Notes under the pieces: generated by a model
Seen by the model: the letters and a program-made list of their open reading frames with translations, nothing else
Database searches by the model: none
Told to the model about the DNA's origin: nothing
Part shown: positions 2,204 to 15,876 of the stretch, one piece after another
Layout of the letters: the number at the start of each line of letters is the position of its first letter
Numbering within the stretch: the stretch's first letter is position 1
Position numbers and translations under genes: made by a program
Source: Castellaniella sp. S9
GTDB taxonomy: Bacteria > Pseudomonadota > Gammaproteobacteria > Burkholderiales > Burkholderiaceae_B
Length of the DNA stretch: 64,000 bases
Direction of reading: 5' to 3'
Assembly (NCBI RefSeq): GCF_027257175.1
Contig: NZ_JAPFGD010000004.1
Coordinates: forward strand, 1-64,000

Positions 2204-4030
2204 TCAATCCTTTTTGCTTTCGAGGAGTTCCCAGCGGGCATAGCTGGACTCGAGCTGCGCCTCCACGGCCTCGATCGCCCGTTGTATGGATTCCGCCTCC
2301 TCGGTGCCCGAGCGGTAGAGGTCGGGGTCGGACAGGCGCGCCGCGAGACCGGCCTGTTCGGCCTCCAGTTCCGAAATGCGCTCGGGCAGGGCCTCGAGTT
2401 CCTGTTCCTCCCAGGGGGCGAGCCGGTTCTTGCGGGCTCGTGTGCCGCCGTCCTCCTTGTCGGCTGACGCGGGCCGGGAGGGTGCGGCATCGCGGGCCGC
2501 GGGCGCGGAGGATCCGGCCGGATCCGGCGTGGCGGGCGCTGGGCGCTGGGCGATCCAGTCGTCGTAGCCGCCGACGTACTCCCGCCACAGGCCGCCGCCC
2601 TCGGCGACGAGGGTCTGGGTCACGACGTTGTCGAGGAAATTGCGGTCATGGCTGACCAGCAGCACTGTGCCGCCGAAATCCTGCAGCAGGGATTCCAGCA
2701 GTTCCAGGGTGTCGATGTCCAGGTCGTTGGTGGGTTCGTCCAGGACCAGCACGTTGTGCGGTTGCGCGAACATGCGCGCCAGGGCCAGCCGTGCGCGTTC
2801 GCCGCCCGAGAGACTGGAGACCGGCGAGCGGGATCGGGCCGCCGGAAAAAGGAAGTCCTCGAGATAGCTCATGACGTGCTTGCGCTGGCCGCCGATCTCG
2901 ACCCATTCGCTGCCGGGGCTGATGGTGTCCGCCAAGGTGGCGTTCTCGTCCAGCATGCCGCGCATCTGGTCGAAATAGCCGATGGACAGCTGGGTGCCCA
3001 GCCGCACCGTGCCCGCGTCCGGCTGCAGCTCGCCCAGGATGATGCGCAGCAGCGTGGTCTTGCCCGCGCCGTTGGGGCCGATGATCCCGATCCGGTCGCC
3101 GCGCTGGATGGTGGCGTCGAGATCGCGGATCAGGGTCCGTCCGCCGTAGCCGTGGGTGACGCCGCGCAGCTCGGCGACGAGCTTGCCCGAGCGTTGGCCA
3201 TCGGCCAGCGAGAACCGGACCTGGCCTTGCTGCTCGCGGCGGGCGGCGCGTTCGCGGCGCAGCGCCTCCAGGCGCCTGACCCGGCCTTCGTTGCGGGTCC
3301 GGCGCGCCTCGACCCCCTTGCGGATCCAGACTTCCTCCTGGCTGAGGAGCTTGTCGAACCGTGCATCGGCCAGGCGTTCCGATTCCAGCCACTGCGCCTT
3401 GCGCGCCTGCCAGGCGCTGAAGTTGCCGGGGAAGCTCAGCAGCCGCCCGCGATCCAGCTCGATGATGCGGGTGGTCACGACGTCCAGGAAGCGGCGGTCG
3501 TGGGTGATGATCACCACCGCGATCCGCGCGGCCAGCAGCAGGCCCTCGAGCCAGGCGATGCCGTCGAAGTCCAGGTGGTTGGTGGGCTCGTCCAGCAGCA
3601 GCAGGTCCGGCTCGGCGACCAGCGCGCGTGCCAGGGCGACGCGTTTGCGCGTGCCGCCCGACAGGCCCGCGATCGGTGCCTCGGCGTTCAGGCCGAGGCT
3701 GTCGATCAAGGCTCCGGCGCGCGCCGGGCGTCCCCAATCCTCGGTGTCCAGCATGTCGCCGCAAAGCGCCTCGAGCACCGTGAGGCCCTCGGGCAGTTCG
3801 GGTTCCTGTTCCACGGTTGCGACCCGCAGCCCGCTCACGCGGCGGATCTCGCCGTCATCGAGCTGCGAGCGGCCGTCGAGGATGCGCAGCAGCGAGGATT
3901 TGCCCGCGCCGTTGCGGCCGATCAGGCCGATGCGCTCGCCCGCCTGGATGGCCAGGTCGGCGTGGTCGAGCAGGGGATGATGGCCGTAGGCCAGCTGGGC
4001 CTGGGTCAGGGACAGCACAGTTTCGGACAT
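2204..4030 (-). CDS. uup: ABC-F family ATPase, Uup type
   Basis: A 608-residue protein with two ABC ATPase cassettes in tandem and no membrane segments. The first has Walker A lysine K44, LSGG at 123-126 and DEPTNHLD at 147-154. The second has Walker A lysine K324, LSGGE at 407-411 and DEPTNDLD at 431-438. The C-terminus (about 540-608) is a charged coiled coil, the mark of the Uup branch of ABC-F proteins. These act on ribosomes or branched DNA rather than as transporters. ATG at 4030 was chosen because family proteins start MSETV; an upstream in-frame TTG at 4048 is possible. The gene points away from the MocR gene. Confidence 0.93.
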   Translation of the reverse strand: MSETVLSLTQAQLAYGHHPLLDHADLAIQAGERIGLIGRNGAGKSSLLRILDGRSQLDDGEIRRVSGLRVATVEQEPELPEGLTVLEALCGDMLDTEDWGRPARAGALIDSLGLNAEAPIAGLSGGTRKRVALARALVAEPDLLLLDEPTNHLDFDGIAWLEGLLLAARIAVVIITHDRRFLDVVTTRIIELDRGRLLSFPGNFSAWQARKAQWLESERLADARFDKLLSQEEVWIRKGVEARRTRNEGRVRRLEALRRERAARREQQGQVRFSLADGQRSGKLVAELRGVTHGYGGRTLIRDLDATIQRGDRIGIIGPNGAGKTTLLRIILGELQPDAGTVRLGTQLSIGYFDQMRGMLDENATLADTISPGSEWVEIGGQRKHVMSYLEDFLFPAARSRSPVSSLSGGERARLALARMFAQPHNVLVLDEPTNDLDIDTLELLESLLQDFGGTVLLVSHDRNFLDNVVTQTLVAEGGGLWREYVGGYDDWIAQRPAPATPDPAGSSAPAARDAAPSRPASADKEDGGTRARKNRLAPWEEQELEALPERISELEAEQAGLAARLSDPDLYRSGTEEAESIQRAIEAVEAQLESSYARWELLESKKD

Positions 4031-4122
4031 GGACTGCGGGGTCTCCAAGGCGAGGGGGTTGAGGACATTCCCGTATTGTCGCAGTATTGGAGACGGGGGC
4101 AGTTGGGATAAGGAGGCGGGAC

Positions 4123-5583
4123 ATGCAACTACCGTTGCGTTTGGACCTGGGCCGGCATCAGAACTTGCAGCGACAGATCTTCGAGCAGATCCGGGACCTG
4201 ATCATCGAGGGCTGCCTGAAGGAAGGCGTGCAGCTGCCGGCAAGCCGCATATTGGCAAAAGACCTGGGGGTGTCGCGCAACACCGTGGTGCAGGCGTACG
4301 AGTTGCTGGTTGCCGAGGGCTACCTCGACATGCGGCCGCCTGTCGGCACGTTCGTGGCGCCGCTGCCGGCGACGGCCCGGCCCGTGTCCGATGTGCCACC
4401 CGCGCCGTTGCCGGATGTGGCGGCGTCCTGTTGCAGCCTGCGCTACAAGGGCGAGCCACACATTGTCGTTTCTCCCTATGACACCCCAGTGGCCTTTGAT
4501 TTCTGGGTCGGACGACCCGACGCCCGCCTGTTTCCGATCCTGAACTGGGCCAAGAGCATGAAACAGCGCCTGCGCTATCTGCAGGACGGCAATAGCGGCT
4601 ATGGGGATCCAGCAGGCCTGTGGGATCTTCGCCAGGCGATTGCCGAGTACGTCGGGGCGGCGCGCGGGATCCGGGCCGAGGCGGGCGACATCCTGATCGT
4701 CAATGGCATCCAGGAAGGCCTCAGCCTGATGGCGCAGCTGTTCATCGCCGAAGGCACCGAGGTGGTGGTCGAGAACCCATGCTACATGGGGGCCGCCAAT
4801 ATGTTCGCCAGCCGGGGCGCGCGCCTGGTCCCGGTGCCGGTGGACGACCAGGGCCTGTGCATCGAGGCGTTGCCGACGGGTGCGGCGCTGGCGTATCTGA
4901 CGCCGGCACACCAGTACCCGACCGGTGCGGTATTGTCCGCCCAGCGGCGGCATCGCCTGCTGCATTGGGCCCAGTCCTGTCGGACCTATATTCTGGAGGA
5001 CGATTACGACAGCGACTTCCAGTACGACCAGACGCCTTTGCCGGCGCTCAAGAGCCAGGACGAGAGTGGCCACGTGGTCTACATGGGTACGTTCTCCAAG
5101 AGCCTGGGCGCAGGCCTGCGGGTGGGCTACCTGATCCTGCCGCGCCCGCTGTTCCAGCCGGCCCTGGTCGCGAAGTGCCTGCTGAACAACGGCACGGTGT
5201 GGCTGATCCAGGCCTTGCTGGCCGATTTCCTGGCCTCGGGCGCCTATCGCCAGCACCTGCACCGGATCCGCACGCTGTATGCGGCGCGGCGCAACCTGCT
5301 CTGGCAGGCGCTGTCCCAACAGCTTGGCGGCGAAGTCTCGGGTACGCAGGGCGGGATGCACCTGGTCTGGCACATGCCTGACAGCATGCCCGAAGCCCTG
5401 GACGTGGAACGCCGGGCGCGGGCGCTTGGCGTGGGCGTCTACAGCTTTCCCACCGGCAACGCGCGGCTGCTTGGCGATGCGGCCGAGCAGCGCTATGCCC
5501 GGTCGCTGATGCTGGGATATGCCGCGCTTCAAGAGCGTGAAATCGAGTCCGGGGTGCGGCGCCTGGCGTCGCTGCTGGGGTGA
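4123..5583 (+). CDS. MocR/PdxR-type regulator (GntR HTH fused to a PLP aminotransferase fold)
   Basis: A 486-residue fusion protein. Residues 5-80 are a GntR winged helix-turn-helix (QIRDLIIEG, SRILAKDLGVSRNTVVQAYE, GYLDMRPPVGTFVA). Residues 115-486 are a class I aminotransferase-like domain with PAHQYPTG (261-268), EDDYDSDF (292-299) and the PLP lysine K326 in GTFSKSLGAG. MocR proteins bind PLP and use it as a sensor; PdxR controls vitamin B6 synthesis, and others control GABA or taurine genes. The start has AAGGAGG seven bases upstream. The gene lies on the same strand as haoA, ending 122 bp before it, and no B6 gene is nearby, so hao is a plausible target (inference). Two adjacent cysteines (C103, C104) sit in the linker. 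Confidence 0.93.
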   Translation: MQLPLRLDLGRHQNLQRQIFEQIRDLIIEGCLKEGVQLPASRILAKDLGVSRNTVVQAYELLVAEGYLDMRPPVGTFVAPLPATARPVSDVPPAPLPDVAASCCSLRYKGEPHIVVSPYDTPVAFDFWVGRPDARLFPILNWAKSMKQRLRYLQDGNSGYGDPAGLWDLRQAIAEYVGAARGIRAEAGDILIVNGIQEGLSLMAQLFIAEGTEVVVENPCYMGAANMFASRGARLVPVPVDDQGLCIEALPTGAALAYLTPAHQYPTGAVLSAQRRHRLLHWAQSCRTYILEDDYDSDFQYDQTPLPALKSQDESGHVVYMGTFSKSLGAGLRVGYLILPRPLFQPALVAKCLLNNGTVWLIQALLADFLASGAYRQHLHRIRTLYAARRNLLWQALSQQLGGEVSGTQGGMHLVWHMPDSMPEALDVERRARALGVGVYSFPTGNARLLGDAAEQRYARSLMLGYAALQEREIESGVRRLASLLG

Positions 5584-5603
5584 GGCGGCCGGCCGCCGGC
5601 CGC

Positions 5604-5664
5604 GCATGGACCCATCAGATGGTTGAAGCATGGACCTTGAGTTTGCTGGCTCCGGACCTAGACT
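5604..5664 (+). promoter_or_regulatory. Candidate haoA promoter with direct-repeat operator
   Basis: The 9-base sequence GCATGGACC occurs at 5604-5612 and again at 5628-5636, a 24-bp step. A third GGACC follows at 5654-5658. The second copy abuts TTGAGT (5637-5642), which with a 16-bp spacer and TAGACT (5659-5664) forms a plausible sigma-70 promoter, giving a leader of about 35 nt before haoA. Repeats just upstream of a -35 are a usual place for an activator, and MocR proteins commonly bind direct repeats, so the neighbouring regulator may bind here (inference). A GC-rich palindrome at 5585-5603 precedes the repeats. Confidence 0.4.
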
Positions 5665-5705
5665 AGACAGCATAGAAAAAGACCCGTCATGGGGAGGAGA
5701 CAGCA

Positions 5706-7463
5706 ATGCGCAATCATTTGCTGGGCAGCCTGCTGGCTATGCTGGTGGCGATGCTTTTGGTGGCGCCGGCATCCGCGAAGATCTGGGATTCGGTGCCCGA
5801 CGAACAGCTCAAGGCGCTTGAGATCGACCGGGATGCCAGTCCCAAGGCGTTCTACGAGGCCTTGTCGGCACGCTACAAGGCCGAACTGACCAAGGGCAAG
5901 TTCGCCAAGTGGTGGGAACCCATACCCATGGACCAGTACCTGGCTCCCACGCTGTTCTACTCGCCGCCTCCCGGACTGGACATCGAGGTCAGCCGCAGCC
6001 AATGCGCGGACTGCCACCAGGCGGTGACGCATGGCTGGGTGAAATCCTGGGAAAAGAGCGTGCACGCGAATCTCGACGAGATCCGTGGCTTGCCCGACGG
6101 GGATGTGCGCGCCTATAAAAAGGACATCATCGCCGAGGTCGAGTCCAATCTGCACTCGCTCGACCTGCTGGCTGCGGATCAAACACTGAAGAACGTCTCC
6201 TGTATTGACTGTCACATGGGCGTGGGCCAGGAAACCGGCAACCACGCCAAGGACCTGCGCATGCCTGACCGGTCCGTGTGCGGGACCTGCCACCTGAGGC
6301 AGTTCGCCGAGGCCGAGTCCGAGCGCGATACGCTCGTCTGGCCTCAGGAACAATGGGCGCCTGGGCATCCCTCGCATACGGTGGACTACATGGCCAACGT
6401 CGAGACCGCCACCTGGGCCGCCCTGCAGCAGCGTGAGGTGGCGGCCAGTTGCACGATGTGCCACACCAATCAGACCAAGTGCGACAACTGCCACACGCGC
6501 CACGAGTTCTCGGTGGTCGAGGCCCGCAAGCCGCAGGCCTGCGCGACCTGCCACAACGGCGTGGACCACAATGAATACGAGAACTACATGACGTCCAAGC
6601 ATGGCACGGTCTACCAGACCCTGGGCCATGAGTGGGACTGGAATGCGCGGCTGGCCGATGCCTTTGAAGCGGGTGGGCAAACGGCGCCGACCTGCCAGAC
6701 CTGCCACTTCGAGTACAACGGCGAGTTCACGCACAACGTGGTGCGCAAGGTGCGCTGGGGCTTCCTCCCGTTCCAGAACATCGTGGACAACCTGGACGAC
6801 CCCTGGTTCGAGTCGCGCAAGGTGGCCTGGCAGTCGACGTGCTCGCAGTGCCACTCGCCACGCTTTGCCAAAACCTATCTCGACATGATGGACAGCGGCA
6901 TCAAGGAGGGCACGGCGCTGGTCGAGTCGACGCGCAAGGTGGTGCAAAAACTCTATGACGACGAACTGCTGGTGGGCCAGAAGACCAACCGTCCGGTGCC
7001 GCCCGAGCCCGAGATCGCGGAGGCCGGTGGCTTCAGCTCGCTGTTCTTCGCCCAGGGCAATGGCACCACGCTGGTCGACCGCACATTCGCGGAAATGTGG
7101 GAGCAGCACGTCGCCCAATACATGAAGGGATTGCAGCACGTCAATCCGGGCGGCTGGACGTACTCCGCCGGCTGGTCCGACCTGATCAAGGACCAGACCA
7201 TCATCAATGAGCAGGATACAGTGCTGCGGGCCCGGGCCGCGCTCGAGGAGCGCGTGGCCAAGCTCGAGGGCGCCACGCAGCAAAGCGCGGCGAAGGTTTC
7301 TTCGCTGGCGCCGGCGTCGGGGTCGATACAGCTGGCCAGCCTGACCCTGGATGCGGATTACACCAGCGGCAGCCTGGCCCTGCTGGGCGGGGGGCTGCTG
7401 TTCGGGGGCTTGATGTCGGTACGGCGCGCACCCAAGCGCAAGGAGGAAGAGGAGACCGCGTAG
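5706..7463 (+). CDS. haoA: Octaheme hydroxylamine oxidoreductase
   Basis: A 585-residue periplasmic c-type cytochrome with a Sec signal peptide (cleavage after about residue 24, APASA/K). Eight CXXCH motifs start at residues 100, 166, 192, 249, 259, 279, 330 and 379, the spacing of hydroxylamine oxidoreductase rather than pentaheme NrfA. HAO oxidises hydroxylamine, to nitrite or NO, at the P460 heme, which is cross-linked to a tyrosine of the neighbouring subunit. Y486 in PGGWTYSAGW lies about where the Nitrosomonas cross-linking tyrosine falls (inference). Residues 497-525 look like a coiled coil and 555-572 a membrane segment followed by RRAPKRKEEEE, a probable C-terminal anchor. The start has GGGGAGGAG just upstream. 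haoB follows after 78 bp, which supports true HAO over the nitrite-reducing epsilon-type enzymes. Confidence 0.92.
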   Translation: MRNHLLGSLLAMLVAMLLVAPASAKIWDSVPDEQLKALEIDRDASPKAFYEALSARYKAELTKGKFAKWWEPIPMDQYLAPTLFYSPPPGLDIEVSRSQCADCHQAVTHGWVKSWEKSVHANLDEIRGLPDGDVRAYKKDIIAEVESNLHSLDLLAADQTLKNVSCIDCHMGVGQETGNHAKDLRMPDRSVCGTCHLRQFAEAESERDTLVWPQEQWAPGHPSHTVDYMANVETATWAALQQREVAASCTMCHTNQTKCDNCHTRHEFSVVEARKPQACATCHNGVDHNEYENYMTSKHGTVYQTLGHEWDWNARLADAFEAGGQTAPTCQTCHFEYNGEFTHNVVRKVRWGFLPFQNIVDNLDDPWFESRKVAWQSTCSQCHSPRFAKTYLDMMDSGIKEGTALVESTRKVVQKLYDDELLVGQKTNRPVPPEPEIAEAGGFSSLFFAQGNGTTLVDRTFAEMWEQHVAQYMKGLQHVNPGGWTYSAGWSDLIKDQTIINEQDTVLRARAALEERVAKLEGATQQSAAKVSSLAPASGSIQLASLTLDADYTSGSLALLGGGLLFGGLMSVRRAPKRKEEEETA

Positions 7464-7541
7464 GCGGCGACACGTGGGGTGGTGCGCAAGCGCCACCCCC
7501 CATGCGCCGCAGTCCCAGAGGAGTCGTGTGCAGGAGGAGTC

Positions 7542-8567
7542 ATGACGGGAATCTCCACTCGGTTGGCGGATACGCGGTGGCGGGGCATGCTCGTGATGGG
7601 TGTGGGCGCGCTGTTGCTCGGCGCGGCCGCCTGGATATGGATGCGCGGGATGGCGGCGGAGCCGCCCTATCGCTACGAGATGGATGCGGCGCCGGCACAG
7701 CAGGCCGCACCCGAGACCCTGCGCAGTGCGCAGGGTGTGTTGCCATTGCAGACCGGACGGGTGCTGGTGGCCGGCGGGGCCGGGGATGTCCTGGCCAGGT
7801 TCGCCACGGTGGGCTCGGCCGATGGTCCGGTCCTGATGCGCTGGCAACCCACGGTCGATGGTCCATTCCTGCGCCTGCCGCCCGACTTGGGCGAGATCGA
7901 GGCGCTGGCCGAGGTGCTCGAACGCCATGTGGATCCGCAGACCCCCGTGCTGGCATGGTGGGATGTCTCCCGTCAGCTGGGCCTGCTGTCGGGGGTGCGG
8001 ACCGTCTTTGATGCGCCGCTGGGCAAGCCGCTCTTCATTCCCGCGGCATGGCGCGGCGCGCGCGGCCAGGTGGAAGCGGTTGAAACGGCATTCTGGGGCG
8101 CCACCGCTCAGGGCGACGAGGCGGCACGCTTCGAACGCTTCGCCGATGCGCTGGTGATGGAGGAGGGCGCCGGCATGGACGCCTTGCGCAGCCTGCTTCC
8201 GGACCAGCGCGCCGTCCTGGTCTTGCATGTCCGCGATGCCATCCAGCTTGGCCAGATGCGTCCTGACCGCATCGGGGTCGCCTATCGGGAATTTCCACCC
8301 TCGGGGGACGTGCACGGCATGGTGCGCAGTGTGCGCGGCTGGCTGGGCGAGGATGGATACACGGCCTATGCGCTCATGCGCAACGAGAACCAGCCCCTGA
8401 AGGCGATCGCATTGACCGACGATGCGTCGGGCATGACGCTGGCGGCGCGCCTGCTGCCCTTCATCGGCAATGCCCAATACGATGTGCCTGGCACGACCCT
8501 GGTCTATCAGACGGGGGGCTTCGTCGTCTATGAAATCGGGCCGGCGGCCTCCGGCGCGCAGGAGTAA
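7542..8567 (+). CDS. haoB: HaoB, partner protein of hydroxylamine oxidoreductase
   Basis: A 341-residue protein with one N-terminal membrane segment (about residues 14-35) followed by a soluble, presumably periplasmic domain without cysteines or heme motifs. It matches the HaoB family in being a single-pass protein encoded directly after haoA, as in ammonia oxidisers and methanotrophs. The molecular role of HaoB is not established; assembly or tethering of HaoA is usually suggested. ATG at 7542 follows AGGAGGAG. An in-frame GTG or ATG further upstream lacks such a site. Its stop codon is only 3 nt before ccmC, so haoB and the ccm genes are almost certainly co-transcribed and translationally coupled. 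Confidence 0.85.
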   Translation: MTGISTRLADTRWRGMLVMGVGALLLGAAAWIWMRGMAAEPPYRYEMDAAPAQQAAPETLRSAQGVLPLQTGRVLVAGGAGDVLARFATVGSADGPVLMRWQPTVDGPFLRLPPDLGEIEALAEVLERHVDPQTPVLAWWDVSRQLGLLSGVRTVFDAPLGKPLFIPAAWRGARGQVEAVETAFWGATAQGDEAARFERFADALVMEEGAGMDALRSLLPDQRAVLVLHVRDAIQLGQMRPDRIGVAYREFPPSGDVHGMVRSVRGWLGEDGYTAYALMRNENQPLKAIALTDDASGMTLAARLLPFIGNAQYDVPGTTLVYQTGGFVVYEIGPAASGAQE

Positions 8568-8570
8568 GCC

Positions 8571-9317
8571 ATGGCGGCCGGACGGATCAACTGGTATGCC
8601 TTTGCGGCGCCGCGCCGCTTCTACGATCTGGCGGGCGCGCTGATTCCCTGGCTGGGGGGACTGGCTGCGCTGCTGGGGGTGGCGGGCCTGGTGATCGGAC
8701 TGGGCATCGCGCCGACCGATGCACAGCAGGGCGACGCCTATCGCATCATCTTCGTCCACGTCCCGGTGGCCTGGATGTCGATGATCATCTACCTGGCCAT
8801 GGCGTTCTGGGCCGGGGTCAGCCTGGTGTTCAATGCGCGGCTGGCGGCCATGCTGGCGCTCGCCCTGGCGCCGACGGGCGCGCTGATGACATTCCTCGCG
8901 CTGTGGACGGGCGCGCTCTGGGGCCGGCCGACCTGGGGGGCCTGGTGGGTCTGGGATGCGCGCCTGACCTCGGAGCTGGTCCTGCTGTTCCTGTACGTTG
9001 GTTTTCTGGCCCTGCACGCGGCGATCGACGACGTGCGCCGCGCCGACCGCGCGGCCGCCCTGCTGGCCCTGGTGGGCGTGGTCAATGTGCCCATCATTTA
9101 TTTCTCCGTGGTCTGGTGGAACACACTGCACCAGGGCGCCTCGGTCAGCCTGTCGAGCGCGCCCACCATGGCGGCCATCATGCTGACGGGCATGCTGATC
9201 GCGACGCTGGCCTTGTGGTGCTATTGCATCGCCATTGTCCTGGCCCGCGTGCGCGTCCTGATCGTCGAACGGGAGGGCGCGTCCAAGTGGATGGCGCGCA
9301 AGGAGGAGTGGACATGA
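8571..9317 (+). CDS. ccmC: Cytochrome c maturation protein CcmC (heme handling)
   Basis: A 248-residue inner-membrane protein with six membrane segments. The tryptophan-rich WWD motif WGAWWVWD is at 122-129. The flanking histidines H63 (FVHVPVAW) and H187 (WWNTLHQG) are those that ligate heme in the family. CcmC loads heme onto CcmE in System I cytochrome c biogenesis. It starts the ccm run, 3 nt after haoB, and its stop overlaps the ccmD start by 4 nt (ATGA). Confidence 0.96.
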   Translation: MAAGRINWYAFAAPRRFYDLAGALIPWLGGLAALLGVAGLVIGLGIAPTDAQQGDAYRIIFVHVPVAWMSMIIYLAMAFWAGVSLVFNARLAAMLALALAPTGALMTFLALWTGALWGRPTWGAWWVWDARLTSELVLLFLYVGFLALHAAIDDVRRADRAAALLALVGVVNVPIIYFSVVWWNTLHQGASVSLSSAPTMAAIMLTGMLIATLALWCYCIAIVLARVRVLIVEREGASKWMARKEEWT

Positions 9318-9520
9318 ACTGGTCGAACTGGGCCGAGTTCTGGGCCATGGGCGGCCATGCGCGCTATGTCTGGGGCAGCTTTGCCATGGTGGCCCTGGTC
9401 CTGGCGGCCGAATGGGCGCAGCTGGCGTGGCGGCGCCGGCTTGCGCGCCGCCCGGAGGGCCTGCGCGGCATCGCACTGGACAAAGAGGTGAAGGCCCATG
9501 AAGCCGCGAACGAAACGTAG
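9314..9520 (+). CDS. ccmD: Heme exporter subunit CcmD
   Basis: A 68-residue protein with one membrane helix (about residues 18-38), an N-terminus rich in Trp and Gly ([14 protein letters not shown]) and a basic C-terminal tail ([10 protein letters not shown]). This is the standard CcmD pattern. CcmD helps release heme-loaded CcmE from the CcmABC complex. It overlaps ccmC by 4 nt and ccmE by 23 nt. Confidence 0.88.
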
Positions 9521-9977
9521 CCTGATGGTGCTTGGCGGCCTGGCCTCGCTGGGATTGGCCAGCGCGCTCGTGCTCGACGCGTTTCGCAGCAACCTGGTGT
9601 TCTATTTCAGCCCGTCGGAGGTCGCCGCCTCGGCCGTGCCGTCGGGCCAGCGGTTTCGCCTGGGCGGTGTGGTCGAGGAAGGCAGCCTGCGGCGCGAGGG
9701 CCAGACCCTGCGCGTGAGCTTCGGCGTGACCGACGGTGCCCGGACGGTGCCGGTCCACTACGAGGGATTGCTGCCCGATATGTTCCGCGAGGGCAAGGGC
9801 GTCGTGGCCCAGGGCGTGATGGATACGGGCGGCGTATTCGTCGCCGATCAGGTCCTGGCCAAGCATGATGAGAACTACATGCCGCCCGAAGCCGCCCAGG
9901 CGCTCGAGGACGCCCGCCTGGCCGCCAATACCGAGGTGTCGACGGCCTGGACCGGCGGTGGCGGAGGCACGCCATGA
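9498..9977 (+). CDS. ccmE: Periplasmic heme chaperone CcmE
   Basis: A 159-residue protein with an N-terminal anchor (residues 9-27) and a periplasmic OB-fold domain. The heme-binding motif is KHDENYMP, with H123 as the residue that bonds covalently to a heme vinyl group and Y127 as a ligand. It takes heme from CcmC and passes it to CcmF. The start lies inside ccmD, and its stop overlaps ccmF by 4 nt. Confidence 0.96.
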
Positions 9978-12013
9978 TTCCCGAGATCGGTCACTTCGCC
10001 CTGACCCTCGCGCTGCTGCTGGCCTGTGTGCAGGTGGTGCTGCCCCTGTGGGGCGCGGCCCGCGACCGGACGGCCTGGATGGCCCTGGGACGTCCGGCGG
10101 CGGCGGGACAGGCGCTGTTCGTGCTGGTGGCGTTCGCCTGCCTGATGTGGTCTTTTTATGCCAACGATTTCTCGGTGCGCTATGTTGTTCAGCACTCCAA
10201 CACGGCCTTGCCCTGGGCCTATCGCCTGGCGGCGGTGTGGGGCGGCCACGAGGGCTCGATCCTGCTCTGGCTGCTGATCCTGTCCGGCTGGACCTTGGCG
10301 GTGGCGCTGTTTTCGCGCCACCTCGAATTCGGCATGCTGGCCCGCATCCTCGGGATCATGGGGCTGATCAGTATCGGTTTCCTGCTGTTCATTCTGTTCA
10401 CGTCGAACCCATTTGACCGGCTGTTTCCGGCCGCGCTCAACGGCGACGACCTGAACCCGCAATTGCAGGACCCTGGGCTGATCCTGCATCCGCCGCTGCT
10501 GTACATGGGGTATGTGGGCATGGCGGTGCCGTTTGGGTTCGCCATGGCGGCACTGCTGGCCGGCAAGCTGGATGCCGCCTGGGCGCGCTGGACCCGGCCC
10601 TGGGCGACCGTATCCTGGTGTTTTCTCACCCTGGGGATCGCCCTGGGCAGCGCCTGGGCCTATTACGAACTGGGGTGGGGCGGCTGGTGGTTCTGGGATC
10701 CGGTCGAGAACGCGTCGCTGATGCCCTGGCTGGTCGGCGCCGCCTTGCTGCATTCGCTGGCGGTGACCGAGAAGCGCGGCACATTCAAGATGTGGACCGT
10801 GCTGCTGGCGATCATTGCGTTCTCTCTGTCGCTGCTGGGCACGTTCCTGGTCCGCTCGGGTGTCCTGACCTCGGTGCATGCCTTTGCCACGGATCCAAAG
10901 CGTGGCGTCTTCATCCTGCTGTTCCTGGGCATCGTGGTCGGCGGCTCCCTGCTGTTGTTCGCGCTCAGGGCTGCGCAGGTGGGTCTTGGCGGGCGTTTCG
11001 CAACGGTATCGCGGGAATCGATGCTGCTGGGCAATAACGTGCTGTTGATGGTGGCGGCCAGCGCGGTCTTGCTGGGCACGCTGTATCCGCTGCTGATCGA
11101 CGCCCTGGGCATGGGCAAGCTGTCGGTCGGGCCGCCGTACTTCAATGCGGTGTTCGTGCCCTTGATGGCACCGGCGTTGTTCCTGATGGGCATCGGCCCG
11201 ATCGCGCGCTGGCAACGGGCGGATGCGGGGGGGCTGGCGCGACGCCTGCGATGGGCGCTGGCGGTCAGTCTGGCGGCGGCCCTGGCGACACCCTGGCTGG
11301 CTGGCGGCTGGAGCGCCTGGACCAGCTTTGGCTATTTCCTGGCATTCTGGATCTTTGCCAGCGCCGCGGTCAATCTGGGCGGGCGCCTGGCGGCGCGACC
11401 GTGGCGCGAATGGTGGCGCGTCTTGCGCGTGCAACCCGGCAGCTACTACGGCATGCTCGTCGCCCACGTCGGCATGGGCGTGCTGGTGGTGGGCGTCACC
11501 ACGGTCGGCAGCTACGAGATCGAGCGCGACGTGATCATGCGGCCATCGGAAACCGCGTCCGCGGCGGGCTATGTGTTCCGCCTCGATACGATCAGCCAGC
11601 GGCCGGGCTCGAACTATATAGCCGATCGCGCAGTCATTTCCGTTTTTCGCAATGAGCAGCGGATTGCGATCCTCACGCCGGAGCGGCGGATCTACACCGC
11701 TGCGCAATCGGCCAATCCCATGACCGAAGCGTCGATCGACACCGGCCTGACGCGCGACCTGTATGTGGCGTTGGGCGATGCCCTGGAGGGCGGCGCCTGG
11801 ATCGTGCGCATCTACGTCAAGCCCTTCGTGTCCTGGATCTGGGGCGGTGGCATCCTGATGGCGCTGGGCGGCGGGCTGGCGGTCCTGGACCGCCGCTATC
11901 GCCGCCGCGTGGCGCAGGCCGACGGCTGCGTGGCACCGGTTGCCGCGCCGCCGCCGCCGTCCTATCCGGATACGGGCGCCGCCGTGCCCAAGCGCGTGGA
12001 GACCTCCGCATGA
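9974..12013 (+). CDS. ccmF: Cytochrome c heme lyase subunit CcmF
   Basis: A 679-residue polytopic membrane protein of the heme-handling family. The WWD motif [12 protein letters not shown] is at 235-246, and the expected conserved histidines are present, including H172 (LHPPLLY) and H260 (AALLH). CcmF with CcmH and CcmI attaches heme to apocytochrome CXXCH motifs, here most obviously the eight in HaoA. Full length for the family. It overlaps ccmE and ccmG by 4 nt each. Confidence 0.96.
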
Positions 12014-12537
12014 AGAAACAGGCCTGGCTGCCGCTGTTGGTGTTCCTCGTGCTAGTGGGTTTTCTGGCCGTCGGGCTGCGCCTGGATCCGCGCGACCTGC
12101 CTTCGCCCCTGATCGATCGCCCCGCGCCGCAATTTGCCTTGCCCTCGGTCGACGCCATGGACCAGGTCCGCGACTCGGGCGATTTGCGCGGGCAAGTCTG
12201 GTTGCTGAATGTATGGGCGTCCTGGTGCGTGGCCTGCCGCCAGGAACACGGCGCCTTGATGGACTTTGCGGCGCAGGAGTCGGTACCGCTCTATGGCTTG
12301 AACTACAAGGACAGGCATGGCGATGCGGTGCGCTGGCTGCGCGAGCGTGGCGACCCGTACGTCGATTCCTTCTTTGACGGCGAGGGCAGGGTCGGGATCG
12401 ATTTCGGCGTGTACGGCGTGCCGGAAACATTCCTGATCGACCGCGAGGGGCGCATCCGTTACAAGCATGCGGGGCCCCTCACGCCGGAACTGCTGCGCGA
12501 CACGATCCTGCCCTTGATCGGAGCCTTGGGTGCGTAG
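12010..12537 (+). CDS. ccmG: Thiol:disulfide oxidoreductase CcmG (DsbE)
   Basis: A 175-residue membrane-anchored thioredoxin-fold protein. A single helix spans residues 5-22, and the active site WASWCVAC puts the reactive cysteines at C73 and C76. It keeps apocytochrome cysteines reduced before heme attachment. The GVPETFLIDREGRIRYKHAG segment near residue 137 is the usual cis-proline region. It overlaps ccmF by 4 nt and ccmH by 8 nt. Confidence 0.95.
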   Translation: MKKQAWLPLLVFLVLVGFLAVGLRLDPRDLPSPLIDRPAPQFALPSVDAMDQVRDSGDLRGQVWLLNVWASWCVACRQEHGALMDFAAQESVPLYGLNYKDRHGDAVRWLRERGDPYVDSFFDGEGRVGIDFGVYGVPETFLIDREGRIRYKHAGPLTPELLRDTILPLIGALGA

Positions 12538-12979
12538 GGCATGGGGGATCGCTGCGGGGCTGGTCCTGGCCTGCGGCCTGAACCTGTCGCTGGCGGCGGG
12601 TCGCGAAGCCCGCCCACTGGCGGAGGATCCCGCCTTGGAGGCCCGGGTGATGGAGATTGCCGAGGACCTGCGCTGCCTGGTGTGCCAGAACGAGACCCTT
12701 GCCGCGTCGCACGCGGGCCTCGCGGTCGATCTGCGCGCGCAAATCCGCGAGCGCCTGGCGGCCGGCGAAGACCGCGCACAGATCATCGATTTCATGGTCG
12801 CCCGCTATGGCGACTTCATCCTTTACCGCCCGCCGTTCCAGCCCAACACCTGGGTCCTGTGGGTCGGCCCCTTCGTGCTGCTGGCCCTTGCGCTGGCCAT
12901 CATGGCGCGAGTCATCCGCCAGCGCCGCGAACAGGGGACCGGGGACGAGGCGTCATTCGATGAGGAGGCGCCGTCATGA
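12530..12979 (+). CDS. ccmH: Cytochrome c maturation protein CcmH
   Basis: A 149-residue protein with a signal sequence (residues 1-23), the redox motif LRCLVCQ (C49, C52) and a C-terminal helix (about 104-122). It corresponds to the N-terminal, redox-active half of the fused E. coli CcmH; the TPR half is the separate next gene. It uses a GTG start inside ccmG and overlaps ccmI by 4 nt. Confidence 0.94.
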   Translation: MRRAWGIAAGLVLACGLNLSLAAGREARPLAEDPALEARVMEIAEDLRCLVCQNETLAASHAGLAVDLRAQIRERLAAGEDRAQIIDFMVARYGDFILYRPPFQPNTWVLWVGPFVLLALALAIMARVIRQRREQGTGDEASFDEEAPS

Positions 12980-14052
12980 TGCTGTTTCTGGTCCTGTTGA
13001 TGGCGAGCATCGTGGCCGCCGGGATGTTGGTGTGGCCCCTGCTGCGCCCCGCGGCCGCGCCGGGCGGCGCGGTGCCGTCGGCGAGCTGGCGCACGGCCCT
13101 GGTCCTGGGTTTCATCGTGCCCATGGCTGCATTCAGCTTGTATGTGGGCAGCGGTCGTCCATTCGCCTGGCTCAGTGACCAGGCGGTGCGGCAGGCCCAG
13201 ACCGACAGCCTGTCGCGGATCCAGTCGTCCATCGACGAACTGGCGGCCCGCCTGCGTGCGCAACCCGAAGACCTCGAGGGCTGGCTGCTGCTGGCGCGCT
13301 CCAACCAGGGCATTGGGCGGATGGCGGAATCGCTGGAGGCATACGCGCGTGCCGTGTCCCTGGCGCCGGAGGATGCCGACCTGATGGTGGAATATGCCAA
13401 TGCGCTGGGCCGCCGGCAGGGCCGCCGCCTGGCGGGCCAACCCACGGTGTGGATCGATCGGGCGCTGGCGATCGCACCCGACAACTTGAACGCCTTGGCG
13501 CTGGCCGGGGCCGCAGCCTTGCAGCAAGGGCAGCCGGAGCGCGCACGCGCCTACTGGACCCGTTTGCGTGACCTGACGCCTGGAGACTCCGGCGACCGTG
13601 GGCGTGTGGATGCCTTGCTGGCCCGCATTGATGGGGACACCGGCCCGGCGGTGTCGGCGGGCATGTCCGCCGCCGCGCAGCCGGTGCCGGCTGCGGCCGC
13701 CGCCGCAAAAGTCAGTGGGGTCGTTCGCATCAGCCCCGCCTTGGCGGATCGGGTGGCCGCGGGCAGCACGCTGTTCATTTTTGCCCGTGCCCTGGAGGGG
13801 CCGCCGCTGCCCATTGCCGCCGTGCGCAAGGCCGCGACGGATTGGCCGGTGCCGTTCGCGCTGGATGATGGCGCGTCGATGATGCAAGGACGGTCGTTGT
13901 CGGCCTTCGATGCCGTGCGGTTGGTGGCCCGGGTTTCGCATTCCGGCAGCCCTGAGGCGCAGCCAGGCGATCTGGAAGGGGCATTGGAGCCGGTCGCCGT
14001 CGGGGCGGCCGGCCTGGAAATCGTCCTGGATCGCATCGTCCAGGCCCGCTGA
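12976..14052 (+). CDS. ccmI: Cytochrome c maturation protein CcmI (TPR apocytochrome chaperone)
   Basis: A 358-residue protein with two N-terminal membrane segments (about 2-20 and 36-52) and a TPR-rich periplasmic domain from about residue 88 (EGWLLLARSNQGIGRMAESL). CcmI holds the C-terminus of apocytochromes and presents them to CcmFH. The C-terminal domain (about 245-355) is the usual extension. It is the last gene of the haoAB-ccmCDEFGHI run and ends 22 bp from the convergent ccmB. Confidence 0.93.
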   Translation: MMLFLVLLMASIVAAGMLVWPLLRPAAAPGGAVPSASWRTALVLGFIVPMAAFSLYVGSGRPFAWLSDQAVRQAQTDSLSRIQSSIDELAARLRAQPEDLEGWLLLARSNQGIGRMAESLEAYARAVSLAPEDADLMVEYANALGRRQGRRLAGQPTVWIDRALAIAPDNLNALALAGAAALQQGQPERARAYWTRLRDLTPGDSGDRGRVDALLARIDGDTGPAVSAGMSAAAQPVPAAAAAAKVSGVVRISPALADRVAAGSTLFIFARALEGPPLPIAAVRKAATDWPVPFALDDGASMMQGRSLSAFDAVRLVARVSHSGSPEAQPGDLEGALEPVAVGAAGLEIVLDRIVQAR

Positions 14053-14074
14053 TCCTCCAGGCGGCTCCGGTGGC

Positions 14075-14755
14075 TCAATCCAGCGCGATGCGCAGCGCGG
14101 CGGCGCTCGCCCAAGGGGCGAGGAACAGGGCCAGCACCAGCATGGCGCCCAGGGTGGCATAGTAGCCGTCCGCCGGCATGCCGCGCAGGCTGTCGCCGAC
14201 TGCCGCGGCGCCGAACACCAGGATCGGGATGTACAGGGGCAGGATCAGGATCGCCAGCAGCGTCGCGGCGCCCCGCACGCCCACCGTGAGCGCCGCACCC
14301 ACCGCGCCCAGCAGGCTGAGCGTCGGCGTGCCCAGCAGCAGGACCAGGAACAGGGTGCCAGTGGCCTCGGCCGGCAGGTTGAACTGCAGCGCCATCAGCG
14401 GCGCGATCACGATCAGCGGCACGGCGGTGCCCAGCCAATGGGCGGCGGTCTTGCTGAGCAGCAGCAAAGGCAGCGGGGTGCCGGCCAGCAGAAACTGCTC
14501 CAGGGTGCCGTCCGCGTGGTCCTCGGCGAACAGCTTGGGCAGCGTCAGCAGGGTGGCCAGCAGCGCCGCCACCCAGATCACGCCCGGTGCGATGTCGCGC
14601 AGGACGGTGGGGTCGGGGTTCATGCCCAGCGGGAACAGGCCGGTCACCATGATGAAGAACACCAGAGCACCGATGCTGTCGGTGCGCCGCCGCCAGGCCA
14701 GGCGCAGGTCTCGGGTCAGGACGCACCTCATGGTACGCAGTTCGGTGTGGCTCAT
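14075..14755 (-). CDS. ccmB: Heme exporter permease CcmB
   Basis: A 226-residue membrane protein with six hydrophobic segments and the CcmB signature region EDHADGTLEQFLLAGTPLP near residues 78-96. With CcmA and CcmC it forms the ATP-driven complex that releases heme-loaded CcmE. ATG at 14755 overlaps the ccmA stop by 4 nt. In most System I operons ccmAB precede ccmC on the same strand; here they sit on the opposite strand at the far end of the block. Confidence 0.95.
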   Translation of the reverse strand: MSHTELRTMRCVLTRDLRLAWRRRTDSIGALVFFIMVTGLFPLGMNPDPTVLRDIAPGVIWVAALLATLLTLPKLFAEDHADGTLEQFLLAGTPLPLLLLSKTAAHWLGTAVPLIVIAPLMALQFNLPAEATGTLFLVLLLGTPTLSLLGAVGAALTVGVRGAATLLAILILPLYIPILVFGAAAVGDSLRGMPADGYYATLGAMLVLALFLAPWASAAALRIALD

Positions 14756-15366
14756 AGTTCGATGACCTGTTGTGGCAGGGCTTCCAGGCCGGTGCGGTCG
14801 TGGCTTGTGAAAATGACGATGCCGTCGCCGCGCAGGTGGTCCTGGATCAGGCCGACCAGCCACCCGCGCGCTGTGGCATCCAGTGCGGTGAAAGGTTCGT
14901 CCAGGATCCACAGTGGCGCCGGCGGCTGCACGGTCAGCCGCGCCAGCGCCAGGCGCCGGCGCTGGCCTTGCGACAGCAGCCCGGCGGGCACCGCGCGGCG
15001 GGCGGACAGGCCGGCGGCCTGCAGGGCCGCATCGATCTGGGTCGCGGCGGGCCGGCGGCCCTGCAGGGCCAGCGAAACCGCCAGGTTCTCGTGGACGCTG
15101 AGTTCCGCCTTGCTGGCCGGCGCGTGGCCGATATAGATGAGCTGGCTGGAATAGTTTTCGCCCAGGCGGCGGATATCCTCGCCCTGCCAACGGATCGCAC
15201 CGTGCTCGGGCCGCGACAGGCCGCTGATCGTGCGCAGCAGGCTGGTCTTGCCCGCCCCGTTGGGGCCCGATACGCGCAGCAGGCCGCCCGGCCCGACGTG
15301 TGCGTCCAGGTCTTCGAATAATTGCCGCGTCCCACGCGCGCACGCGATTGCTGTCAGCTCGAGAAT
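14752..15366 (-). CDS. ccmA: Heme exporter ATP-binding protein CcmA, probable ATT start
   Basis: A 204-residue ABC ATPase: Walker A GPNGAGKTS (K40), LSQGQRRR (131-138) and ILDEPFTALD (154-163), as in CcmA. No ATG lies near the expected N-terminus. The family usually begins MLEA, and here the matching codon is ATT at 15366-15364, with GGAGGAG ending six bases upstream. The next in-frame alternative is TTG at 15432, with a poor ribosome-binding site and 22 extra residues that look non-coding. Open frame extending further left would run through the RNase P RNA gene and is not credible. The gene is divergent from rnpB. Confidence 0.9.
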   Translation of the reverse strand: MLELTAIACARGTRQLFEDLDAHVGPGGLLRVSGPNGAGKTSLLRTISGLSRPEHGAIRWQGEDIRRLGENYSSQLIYIGHAPASKAELSVHENLAVSLALQGRRPAATQIDAALQAAGLSARRAVPAGLLSQGQRRRLALARLTVQPPAPLWILDEPFTALDATARGWLVGLIQDHLRGDGIVIFTSHDRTGLEALPQQVIEL

Positions 15367-15427
15367 GGAGGCTCCTCCGCCGGTCTGCGCCGGTCCTGGG
15401 TGAAGTGTAGTCAGGGCGGCGAGGGTG

Positions 15428-15456
15428 GGCAAGGACGTGTCGTCTTCCCGTACAAT
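15428..15456 (+). promoter_or_regulatory. Promoter of rnpB
   Basis: TACAAT at 15451-15456 is a near-consensus -10 placed 8 bases before the inferred 5' end of RNase P RNA. The -35 position (around 15428) has only GGCAAG, a weak match, so upstream elements may matter. The same 98-bp gap must also hold the start signals of ccmA on the other strand. Confidence 0.5.
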
Positions 15457-15463
15457 GACGCTT

Positions 15464-15867
15464 GCGGGGCAGATCGGGCAATCGCGGTGCCTGCGGGCAT
15501 CGAGGAAGGTCCGGACTCCACAGGGCGCGATAGCGGCTAACGGCCGTCCGGCGACCCCTTTCGGGCAAGCCGAGGACCAGGGCCACAGAGACGAGTCTGC
15601 CACGGGGGTGTGTCTTCGGGCGCACACCGGTACGGCCATCTCCGTACCGTATGGCGGCGCATGCCGCCATGCCGTGGCAGGGTGAAACGCGGCAACCTCT
15701 ATCGGGAGCAACATCAAATAGGCATGCGCAGGCTTCGTGCCGGCAGGGCGGCCCGCCCCAGCATGCGGGTAGATGGCTAGAGCAGTCCAGCAATGGCCTG
15801 CCCAGAGGAATGATTGCCCGCCGGGGCGACCCGGCGTACAGAATCCGGCCTATAGATCTGTTCCGCA
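15464..15867 (+). ncRNA. rnpB: RNase P RNA (M1 RNA), bacterial type A
   Basis: About 404 nt forming the catalytic RNA that removes tRNA 5' leaders. Landmarks are GAGGAAGGTCCGGACTCC (15502-15519) and CCACAGAGACGAGTCTG (15585-15601). Also present are GGGTGAAACGCGGCAACCTC (15680-15699), AAATAGGCATGC, and AGAGGAATGATTGCC followed by ACAGAATCCGGCCTATAG. The ends pair as helix P1 (15464-15475 with 15855-15866). Compared with the usual GAGGAAAGUCC and CCGGCUUAU there is a paired change in helix P4: G at 15508 opposite C at 15850. Several open frames cross the gene and are not coding. Confidence 0.96.
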
Positions 15868-15876
15868 CTCTTTTTT
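15855..15876 (+). terminator. Terminator of rnpB
   Basis: The 3' strand of the P1 helix is followed by ACTC and a run of six T (15871-15876). No further hairpin is needed: P1 itself, or the structured 3' end, precedes the U tract. Confidence 0.55.

Follow-up and report, generated by a model that had tools for sequence, protein, structure and literature searches.

In ammonia oxidisers, the gene pair haoA-haoB, which includes the gene for the octaheme hydroxylamine oxidoreductase (HAO), is followed by electron-carrier genes. A locus built on the same pair was analysed in a stretch of 64,000 nucleotides, here called the window, from Castellaniella sp. S9 (contig NZ_JAPFGD010000004.1; genome of 3.8 Mb in 33 contigs). 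Between 4123 and 15366, the plus strand carries a MocR-type regulator gene, haoA, haoB and ccmCDEFGHI, and the minus strand carries ccmB and ccmA at the far end, the ccm genes being those of cytochrome c maturation System I. As in Nitrosomonas and in the haoAB loci of methanotrophs, haoB stands behind haoA, and HaoA has eight hemes and the residues Tyr467, Asp267 and His268. The block differs from the Nitrosomonas loci, which show neither MocR nor ccm, in that both are attached, with ccm following haoAB, in that leucine stands at the position of Tyr334, and in that ammonia monooxygenase (AMO) was not found. The order haoA-haoB-MocR-ccmF-G-H-I-ccmE occurs on the Ruegeria pomeroyi DSS-3 megaplasmid (NC_006569), although only part of System I is present there, hemA lies between ccmI and ccmE, and CcmF belongs to another clade. 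Similarly, the heme-lyase genes NrfEFG of the nitrite reductase NrfA lie beside one multiheme nitrogen enzyme (PMC12285233, in part), but they serve a CXXCK motif, whereas the window HaoA has only CXXCH and is accompanied by complete CcmA-I. In a heterotroph-type denitrifier described earlier, cytochrome genes follow haoA-haoB (PMC8402940, in part). Among the matches listed from the open-access literature, subscription papers being mostly outside the scope, there was no MocR regulator of hao and no hao-ccm module, and the words "hydroxylamine", "hao" and "ccm" were absent from the main text of PMC5320631 as far as it was available, the supplementary tables lying outside the scope.

The enzyme, the maturation system and the class of regulator are known; what appears to be new is their recurrent, transferred combination with a predicted operator. 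Judged from sequence, the block is probably a transferred hydroxylamine-oxidation module, regulated by the hao-linked MocR protein, for which the name HaoR is coined here, and delivering its own Ccm proteins. Transfer was indicated by an empty site: the ABC-F gene (window 2204-4048) adjoins rnpB, the gene of RNase P RNA (15466-15868), in 10/10 relatives (9/9 same-genus genomes and Allopusillimonas ginsengisoli, G080), with gaps of 32 to 239 bp as measured by match ends. In the window, the flank homology stops near 4088 and restarts near 15447, so that about 11.4 kb has been added, and these limits are nearly those that the original prediction had given to the block. Its range began on the first base of the start codon of the MocR gene, which went unnamed there. 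HaoA (E up to 1e-20) was found in 3/250 family genomes and in 0/9 other same-genus genomes. The same block in the same gene order is present in A. ginsengisoli, on a different contig from its ABC-F gene, and is therefore not an assembly accident; an artefact was ruled out by this copy together with the clean empty sites of the relatives. Genome G093 has mocR with part of haoA at the end of one contig and ccmEFGHI-(BA) at the end of a second, the arrangement that an assembly gap through the block would give, although such a split is not proved. The GC and GC3 of the block match those of the neighbouring DNA and thus add no compositional sign of transfer, and neither a recombinase gene nor end repeats could be recognised in the block or at its ends, no dedicated recombinase family search having been made. 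The idea of a mobile or co-inherited unit is upheld for co-inheritance and transfer, by the empty sites, by the separate contig of the Allopusillimonas block and by the co-variation described below, and "mobile" applies only in the sense of transferred. The insertion point lies directly beside rnpB, the promoter-like TACAAT being kept, and part of a 5S rRNA gene at the window start marks the contig end.

Co-inheritance was examined in a genome-contig scan that yielded 276 HaoA relatives, the best 80 being used for the hao-locus counts. At least two ccm genes were found near hao in 21/80 loci, MocR (at least 150 bits) in 38/80 and both in 20/80, the regulator thus being linked to haoA more often than ccm; unbiased neighbour clustering, in which antisense frames of GC-rich DNA obscured the picture, was not the source of these counts. 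In the CcmF tree, the seven block sequences (window, Allopusillimonas, G093 and four Comamonas-type genomes) formed one clade (100/99), apart from the window genome's own second ccm set, behind which a TlpA-like and a CcdA-like gene lie on contig C12. This separate grouping ruled out a local duplication of the host ccm. The alpha and the gamma hao-linked CcmF sequences each formed a further clade of their own (100/100 in both cases). The careful CcmF tree comprised 46/71 rows, with L158, L148 and many unlinked rows omitted, and a quick tree contained all of them; the HaoA and HaoR trees were quick trees only. The full-block HaoA proteins formed one clade (SH-aLRT 97) with the main split as in CcmF (the G093 HaoA was too short for the tree), and HaoA and CcmF identities ran parallel in 15/15 pairs compared. 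Across Alcaligenaceae and Comamonas-type genomes, HaoA and CcmF thus co-varied in the comparison that the original prediction had proposed. Only hao-linked beta loci had the permuted order CDEFGHI-then-AB, which occurred in 0/45 unlinked loci, 38 of which read A-B-C-E-F-G-H in order. From the separate clades of linked CcmF and the locus orders, the linkage of HaoA with System I is seen to have arisen several times, in beta, gamma and alpha types. The alpha-type loci read haoA-haoB-MocR-ccmF-G-H-I-hemA-ccmE, with variants, and hemA (5-aminolevulinate synthase) was found in 10/10 alpha-type genome loci. Loci of this type with hemA among the linked ccm genes were L094, L100, L113, L117, L118, L119, L121, L123, L148, L158 and L161.

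HaoR combines a GntR DNA-binding domain with an aminotransferase-like domain, the architecture of the MocR subfamily (PF00392, PF00155). The window protein keeps K312 of GabR, the lysine that binds pyridoxal phosphate (PLP), together with Asp279 and Tyr281, and across HaoR proteins these residues were kept in 40/41, 41/41 and 41/41, respectively. The hao-linked MocR proteins formed one clade (SH-aLRT 99), except for a distant neighbour in L150, and of the four apparently unlinked rows inside it, two came from G093, whose locus is broken, and two were short copies of linked loci. In 12 whole genomes, ten linked HaoR proteins scored at least 368 bits and the best unlinked paralogue 272, HaoR being seen only with hao; none was found in G263, which has the same genus code as the Nitrosomonas loci. 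A MocR match was obtained in 0/56 unlinked control loci (786 kb). Arg207 and Arg430 of GabR, which we take to be pocket residues, were compared with HaoR, and the position of Arg207 was Gly in 41/41 HaoR proteins; since it was also Gly in 11/20 unlinked proteins, the pocket was dropped as an argument for specificity.

Upstream of haoA, a direct repeat is the predicted HaoR operator. It was first seen by eye in 14 beta loci, and its relaxed form, YGGNNCCA-N16-YGGNNCT (relaxed at C7/A8) with 24-bp spacing, was shaped after the loci had been seen. Beginning 54-158 nt before haoA, this form was present in 39/42 HaoR loci and in 5/38 hao loci without visible HaoR (L153, L156, L159 and L160, with less than 90 nt upstream, having been dropped), and spacings from 18 to 31 other than 24 gave it in 0-5 of the 42. 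Four of the five matches without HaoR (L097, L106, L120 and L121) lie on contigs ending a few kb behind haoA, so that HaoR may be off the contig, and the fifth (L110) is weak. The strict form, TGGNNC-N18-TGGNNC, was found in 26/42 HaoR loci and 3/38 without HaoR, with 0-3 at other spacings and 0-4 on the reverse strand; among loci with at least 250 nt upstream the counts were 25/40 and 4/37, and elsewhere it occurred at 0.04 per 400 nt. Outside the discovery set, 14 of 28 loci had the strict form and 27 the relaxed form. Both HaoR and the repeat were present in the Methylocystaceae loci L093, L096 and L103, and neither was present in the Methylocystis loci L099, L101, L102, L104, L105, L108 and L109. 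The repeat was also considered as a sigma-54 site, by eye only, and that reading was set aside.

The window HaoA has eight CXXCH motifs, as do 85/85 tree sequences. When aligned to 4fas it keeps Tyr467, presumably the heme-crosslinking tyrosine, and Asp267 and His268, which we take to belong to the active site; across the tree sequences these were kept in 85/85, 84/85 and 85/85, respectively. Residue 354 is Leu at the position of Nitrosomonas Tyr334, assumed to lie near the active site. Tyr was found there in 18/85 sequences, namely the Nitrosomonas rows and a few near them, whereas gamma methanotroph rows have Asn and the remaining rows Val, Glu, Met or others; since gamma methanotrophs also lack Tyr334, this residue does not define the wider HAO family. 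The window's genome has one HaoA. AMO was not found in 25/25 hao-positive non-methanotroph genomes, the window's included, most of them being metagenome-assembled genomes of unknown completeness, and 2/2 methanotroph controls were positive. Ammonia oxidation by the window's genome was therefore rejected, and the hydroxylamine substrate should come from elsewhere; detoxification of hydroxylamine by the block is plausible. Genome G593 (L041, L042) contains two HaoA types, 61% and 50% identical to that of the window, each with its own HaoR gene. In L143, from a record named Candidatus Anammoxibacter, the HaoA-HaoB pair groups with proteobacterial HaoA, and mis-binning is possible.

HaoB exceeded the TIGR04392 cut-off (248 bits versus 200), and Pfam gave no convincing family for it. 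In the structure model, the C-terminal part is predicted to fold like the peptide-recognition domain at the C-terminus of oligosaccharyltransferases and carries a WWD motif, and a weak sequence match to STT3A was obtained (E 0.019). Unlike STT3, PglB and AglB, the modelled HaoB has one N-terminal membrane helix (residues 7-37) and no multi-helix catalytic membrane domain, and is therefore not considered an oligosaccharyltransferase. The WWD motif is missing, with MPx, LPx or FPG instead, in L094, L100, L112, L114, L116, L117, L123, L148, L158 and L161.

Several observations weigh against the block as a dedicated, hydroxylamine-responsive module. The check for other c-type maturation systems, as recommended in the original prediction, gave System II (ResB/CcsA) and a second complete ccmA-I in the window's genome (G000 contig C12, L005 8436-14901), unrelated to the block ccm, and HaoA therefore need not depend on the linked genes; Allopusillimonas has two further ccm sets besides the block. 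The linked CcmF was the only CcmF found, and ResB was not found, in 4/4 Comamonas-type (G636-G639) and 3/3 gamma genomes (G653-G655), so that the linked ccm must serve other cytochromes there, and the claim of a full System I tied to one enzyme fails as a rule. Fewer than two ccm genes lay near hao in 59/80 loci, some on short contigs. The HaoR tree is not strictly congruent with that of HaoA, the Comamonas-type HaoR proteins grouping with those of L090-L092; in the comparison with GabR, no HaoR pocket residue singles out hydroxylamine; and the relaxed repeat with a 22-bp spacing, unexplained, occurs upstream of haoA in 8/38 loci without HaoR. Most alpha-type HaoB proteins lack WWD while their HaoA keeps the Thr-Tyr-Ser/Thr segment, and WWD does not correlate with the Thr/Ser-Tyr-Ser/Thr segment, which speaks against the HaoB idea given below in its simplest version. 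The ccm genes might accordingly be a general maturation system lying beside haoAB by history, HaoA having no special need of linked copies, an explanation that we regard as possible but rather doubtful; the course proposed for it seems equally doubtful, namely that haoAB settled beside the only ccm set that a Comamonas-like ancestor had, the two then being transferred as one. The sole CcmF without ResB speaks for it, as does the grouping of the L091 CcmF with the unlinked CcmF of its kin. Nevertheless, the linkage arose several times, alpha-type genomes mostly keep a separate CcmF (5/6) while their linked ones form their own clade, and recipients belonging to the window's family possess ResB already, it being found in the window's genome, G080, G093 and 6/6 same-genus genomes. 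CcmF was found in 0/6 same-genus genomes tested, so the pattern named beforehand as refuting the module, relatives that all carry this ccm locus without haoAB, was not what the genomes showed. Additionally, CcmF was present in 25/25 hao-positive non-methanotroph genomes tested (24 above the cut-off), and in the order sample it was present in 244/399 genomes, including all 12 with full-length HaoA (E below 1e-170), an overlap that is weak because 9/12 of these belong to one genus.

The signal, the enzyme activity and the repeat may each be read otherwise. HaoR might sense the PLP level, an amine or a nitrite-derived species, the module answering general amine or nitrogen-oxide stress; this is the most serious of the alternatives but less probable than the preferred reading. 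In its favour, known MocR proteins answer GABA (gamma-aminobutyric acid), taurine, ectoine compounds or PLP (PMC5320631, in part) and the pocket comparison is not telling; against it, HaoR was seen only with hao in the 12 whole genomes, and hydroxylamine reacts with PLP. HaoA running in another direction or on another substrate (reduction of NO or nitrite, or hydrazine) is improbable: there is a report of NO reduction by Hao (cited in PMC8402940, seen in part), Leu replaces Tyr334 and there is a weak match to the hydrazine dehydrogenase model NF052343 (147.7 bits, far below the cut-off of 900), but the crosslinking Tyr is kept in 85/85 sequences and the best PDB matches of the window HaoA are oxidative HAO. 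A core promoter element, or a site for another factor, is likewise an improbable reading of the 24-bp repeat. In the window, the second half of the repeat abuts a -35-like hexamer, and HaoR binding is predicted only; against this, the repeat accompanies HaoR and is missing from most loci without HaoR, a pattern that holds within Methylocystis too, and direct repeats are usual for MocR proteins, the TauR site being CTGGACYTAA (PMC5320631, in part).

Under the preferred reading, a hydroxylamine-oxidation module with its own Ccm supply, hydroxylamine from nitrifying neighbours or side chemistry would react with the PLP of HaoR to give an oxime, and HaoR, bound to the 24-bp repeat whose second half abuts the -35, would turn on haoAB, with ccmC-I expressed by read-through. 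HaoA would be exported and its eight hemes attached by the co-delivered Ccm proteins, while HaoB, as a membrane-anchored peptide-binding domain, might hold or guide apo-HaoA, perhaps at the Thr-Tyr-Ser/Thr segment containing the heme-crosslinking tyrosine. Mature HaoA would convert hydroxylamine to NO or nitrite and pass electrons to a carrier, the gain being detoxification and perhaps some energy, and the co-delivered Ccm would make the trait functional even in a host that lacks System I. That HaoR may sense hydroxylamine through its cofactor is suggested by PLP chemistry and by the precedents of MpaR and DnfR. Hydroxylamine attacks PLP aldimines, and DnfR is reportedly MocR-like, going by the title of one paper. 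O-substituted hydroxylamines and PLP aldimines are treated in PMC11557217 (in part); MpaR, a MocR protein, mediates the cyanide response in Pseudomonas, PLP being reactive with cyanide (PMC10790758, in part), and DnfR controls the hydroxylamine-producing dnf cluster of Alcaligenes (PMC9355588, in part). Like HaoR, these PLP-type regulators neighbour genes concerned with a small toxin that reacts with PLP, but their target genes are different. A wider joint reading, for now a speculative one that we think rather unlikely in full, would see a hydroxylamine-inducible HaoR regulon across heterotrophic alpha, beta and gamma proteobacteria, with an oxime on the HaoR cofactor, a conserved 24-bp operator and an octaheme oxidase grouped with genes for supplying and attaching heme; HaoB would be an HAO assembly factor whose WWD domain recognises the nearly invariant Thr/Ser beside the crosslinking tyrosine of apo-HaoA.

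The features are listed in Table 1. The gene order given in the original prediction, with 3 nt between haoB and ccmC and with ccmB and ccmA facing back, was reproduced. All of CcmA to CcmI are present, in genes that overlap or nearly abut; CcmB, CcmC, CcmD, CcmE, CcmF and CcmG exceeded curated NCBIfam cut-offs and CcmH and CcmI exceeded Pfam cut-offs, while ccmA, to which NCBIfam was not applied, matched only general ABC-transporter models of Pfam such as PF00005 and was named from its position and from being 46-58% identical to the CcmA proteins in other ccm loci. For haoB, the ATG with an upstream AGGAGG was preferred over the GTG at 7479.

Table 1. Features of the hao-ccm block in the window, with the basis of each assignment.
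Feature	Position	Strand	Basis
Whole inserted block	4089..15447 (approximate limits)	.	Homology of the flanks to ten relatives stops and restarts at these points
HaoR, MocR-type regulator (GntR HTH and aminotransferase-like domain)	4123..5583	+	PF00392, PF00155; GabR nearest solved relative
Predicted HaoR operator, direct repeat TGGACC...TGGACC, 24-bp spacing	5607..5639	+	Repeat upstream of haoA, 39/42 HaoR loci
-35/-10-like pair TTGAGT-16-TAGACT, directly behind repeat	5637..5664	+	Read by eye from sequence
haoA, octaheme hydroxylamine oxidoreductase	5706..7463	+	8 CXXCH; PF13447; best PDB match Nitrosomonas HAO
haoB	7542..8567	+	TIGR04392; structure model and fold match
ccmC	8571..9317	+	TIGR01191
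ccmD	9314..9520	+	TIGR03141
ccmE	9498..9977	+	NCBIfam CcmE models, PF03100
ccmF	9974..12013	+	TIGR00353
ccmG	12010..12537	+	TIGR00385
ccmH	12530..12979	+	PF03918
ccmI	12976..14052	+	PF23892, PF23914
ccmB	14075..14755	-	TIGR01190
ccmA	14752..15366	-	PF00005; identity to other CcmA; start codon uncertain (ATT 15366 or further up)

Hydroxylamine oxidation outside ammonia oxidisers is poorly explained, and with a defined, transferred and apparently regulated module present in cultured heterotrophs, it can be tested in ordinary strains, such as the cultured carriers Comamonas badia, Allopusillimonas ginsengisoli and Ruegeria pomeroyi. If HaoR senses hydroxylamine, it would provide a ready biosensor and an account of how cells meet this toxic intermediate, and if HaoB binds peptides through WWD, a conserved nitrification protein of unknown role would become amenable to tests. 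The block further points to a way in which a multiheme enzyme may enter hosts without the right heme-attachment system, namely by bringing its own.

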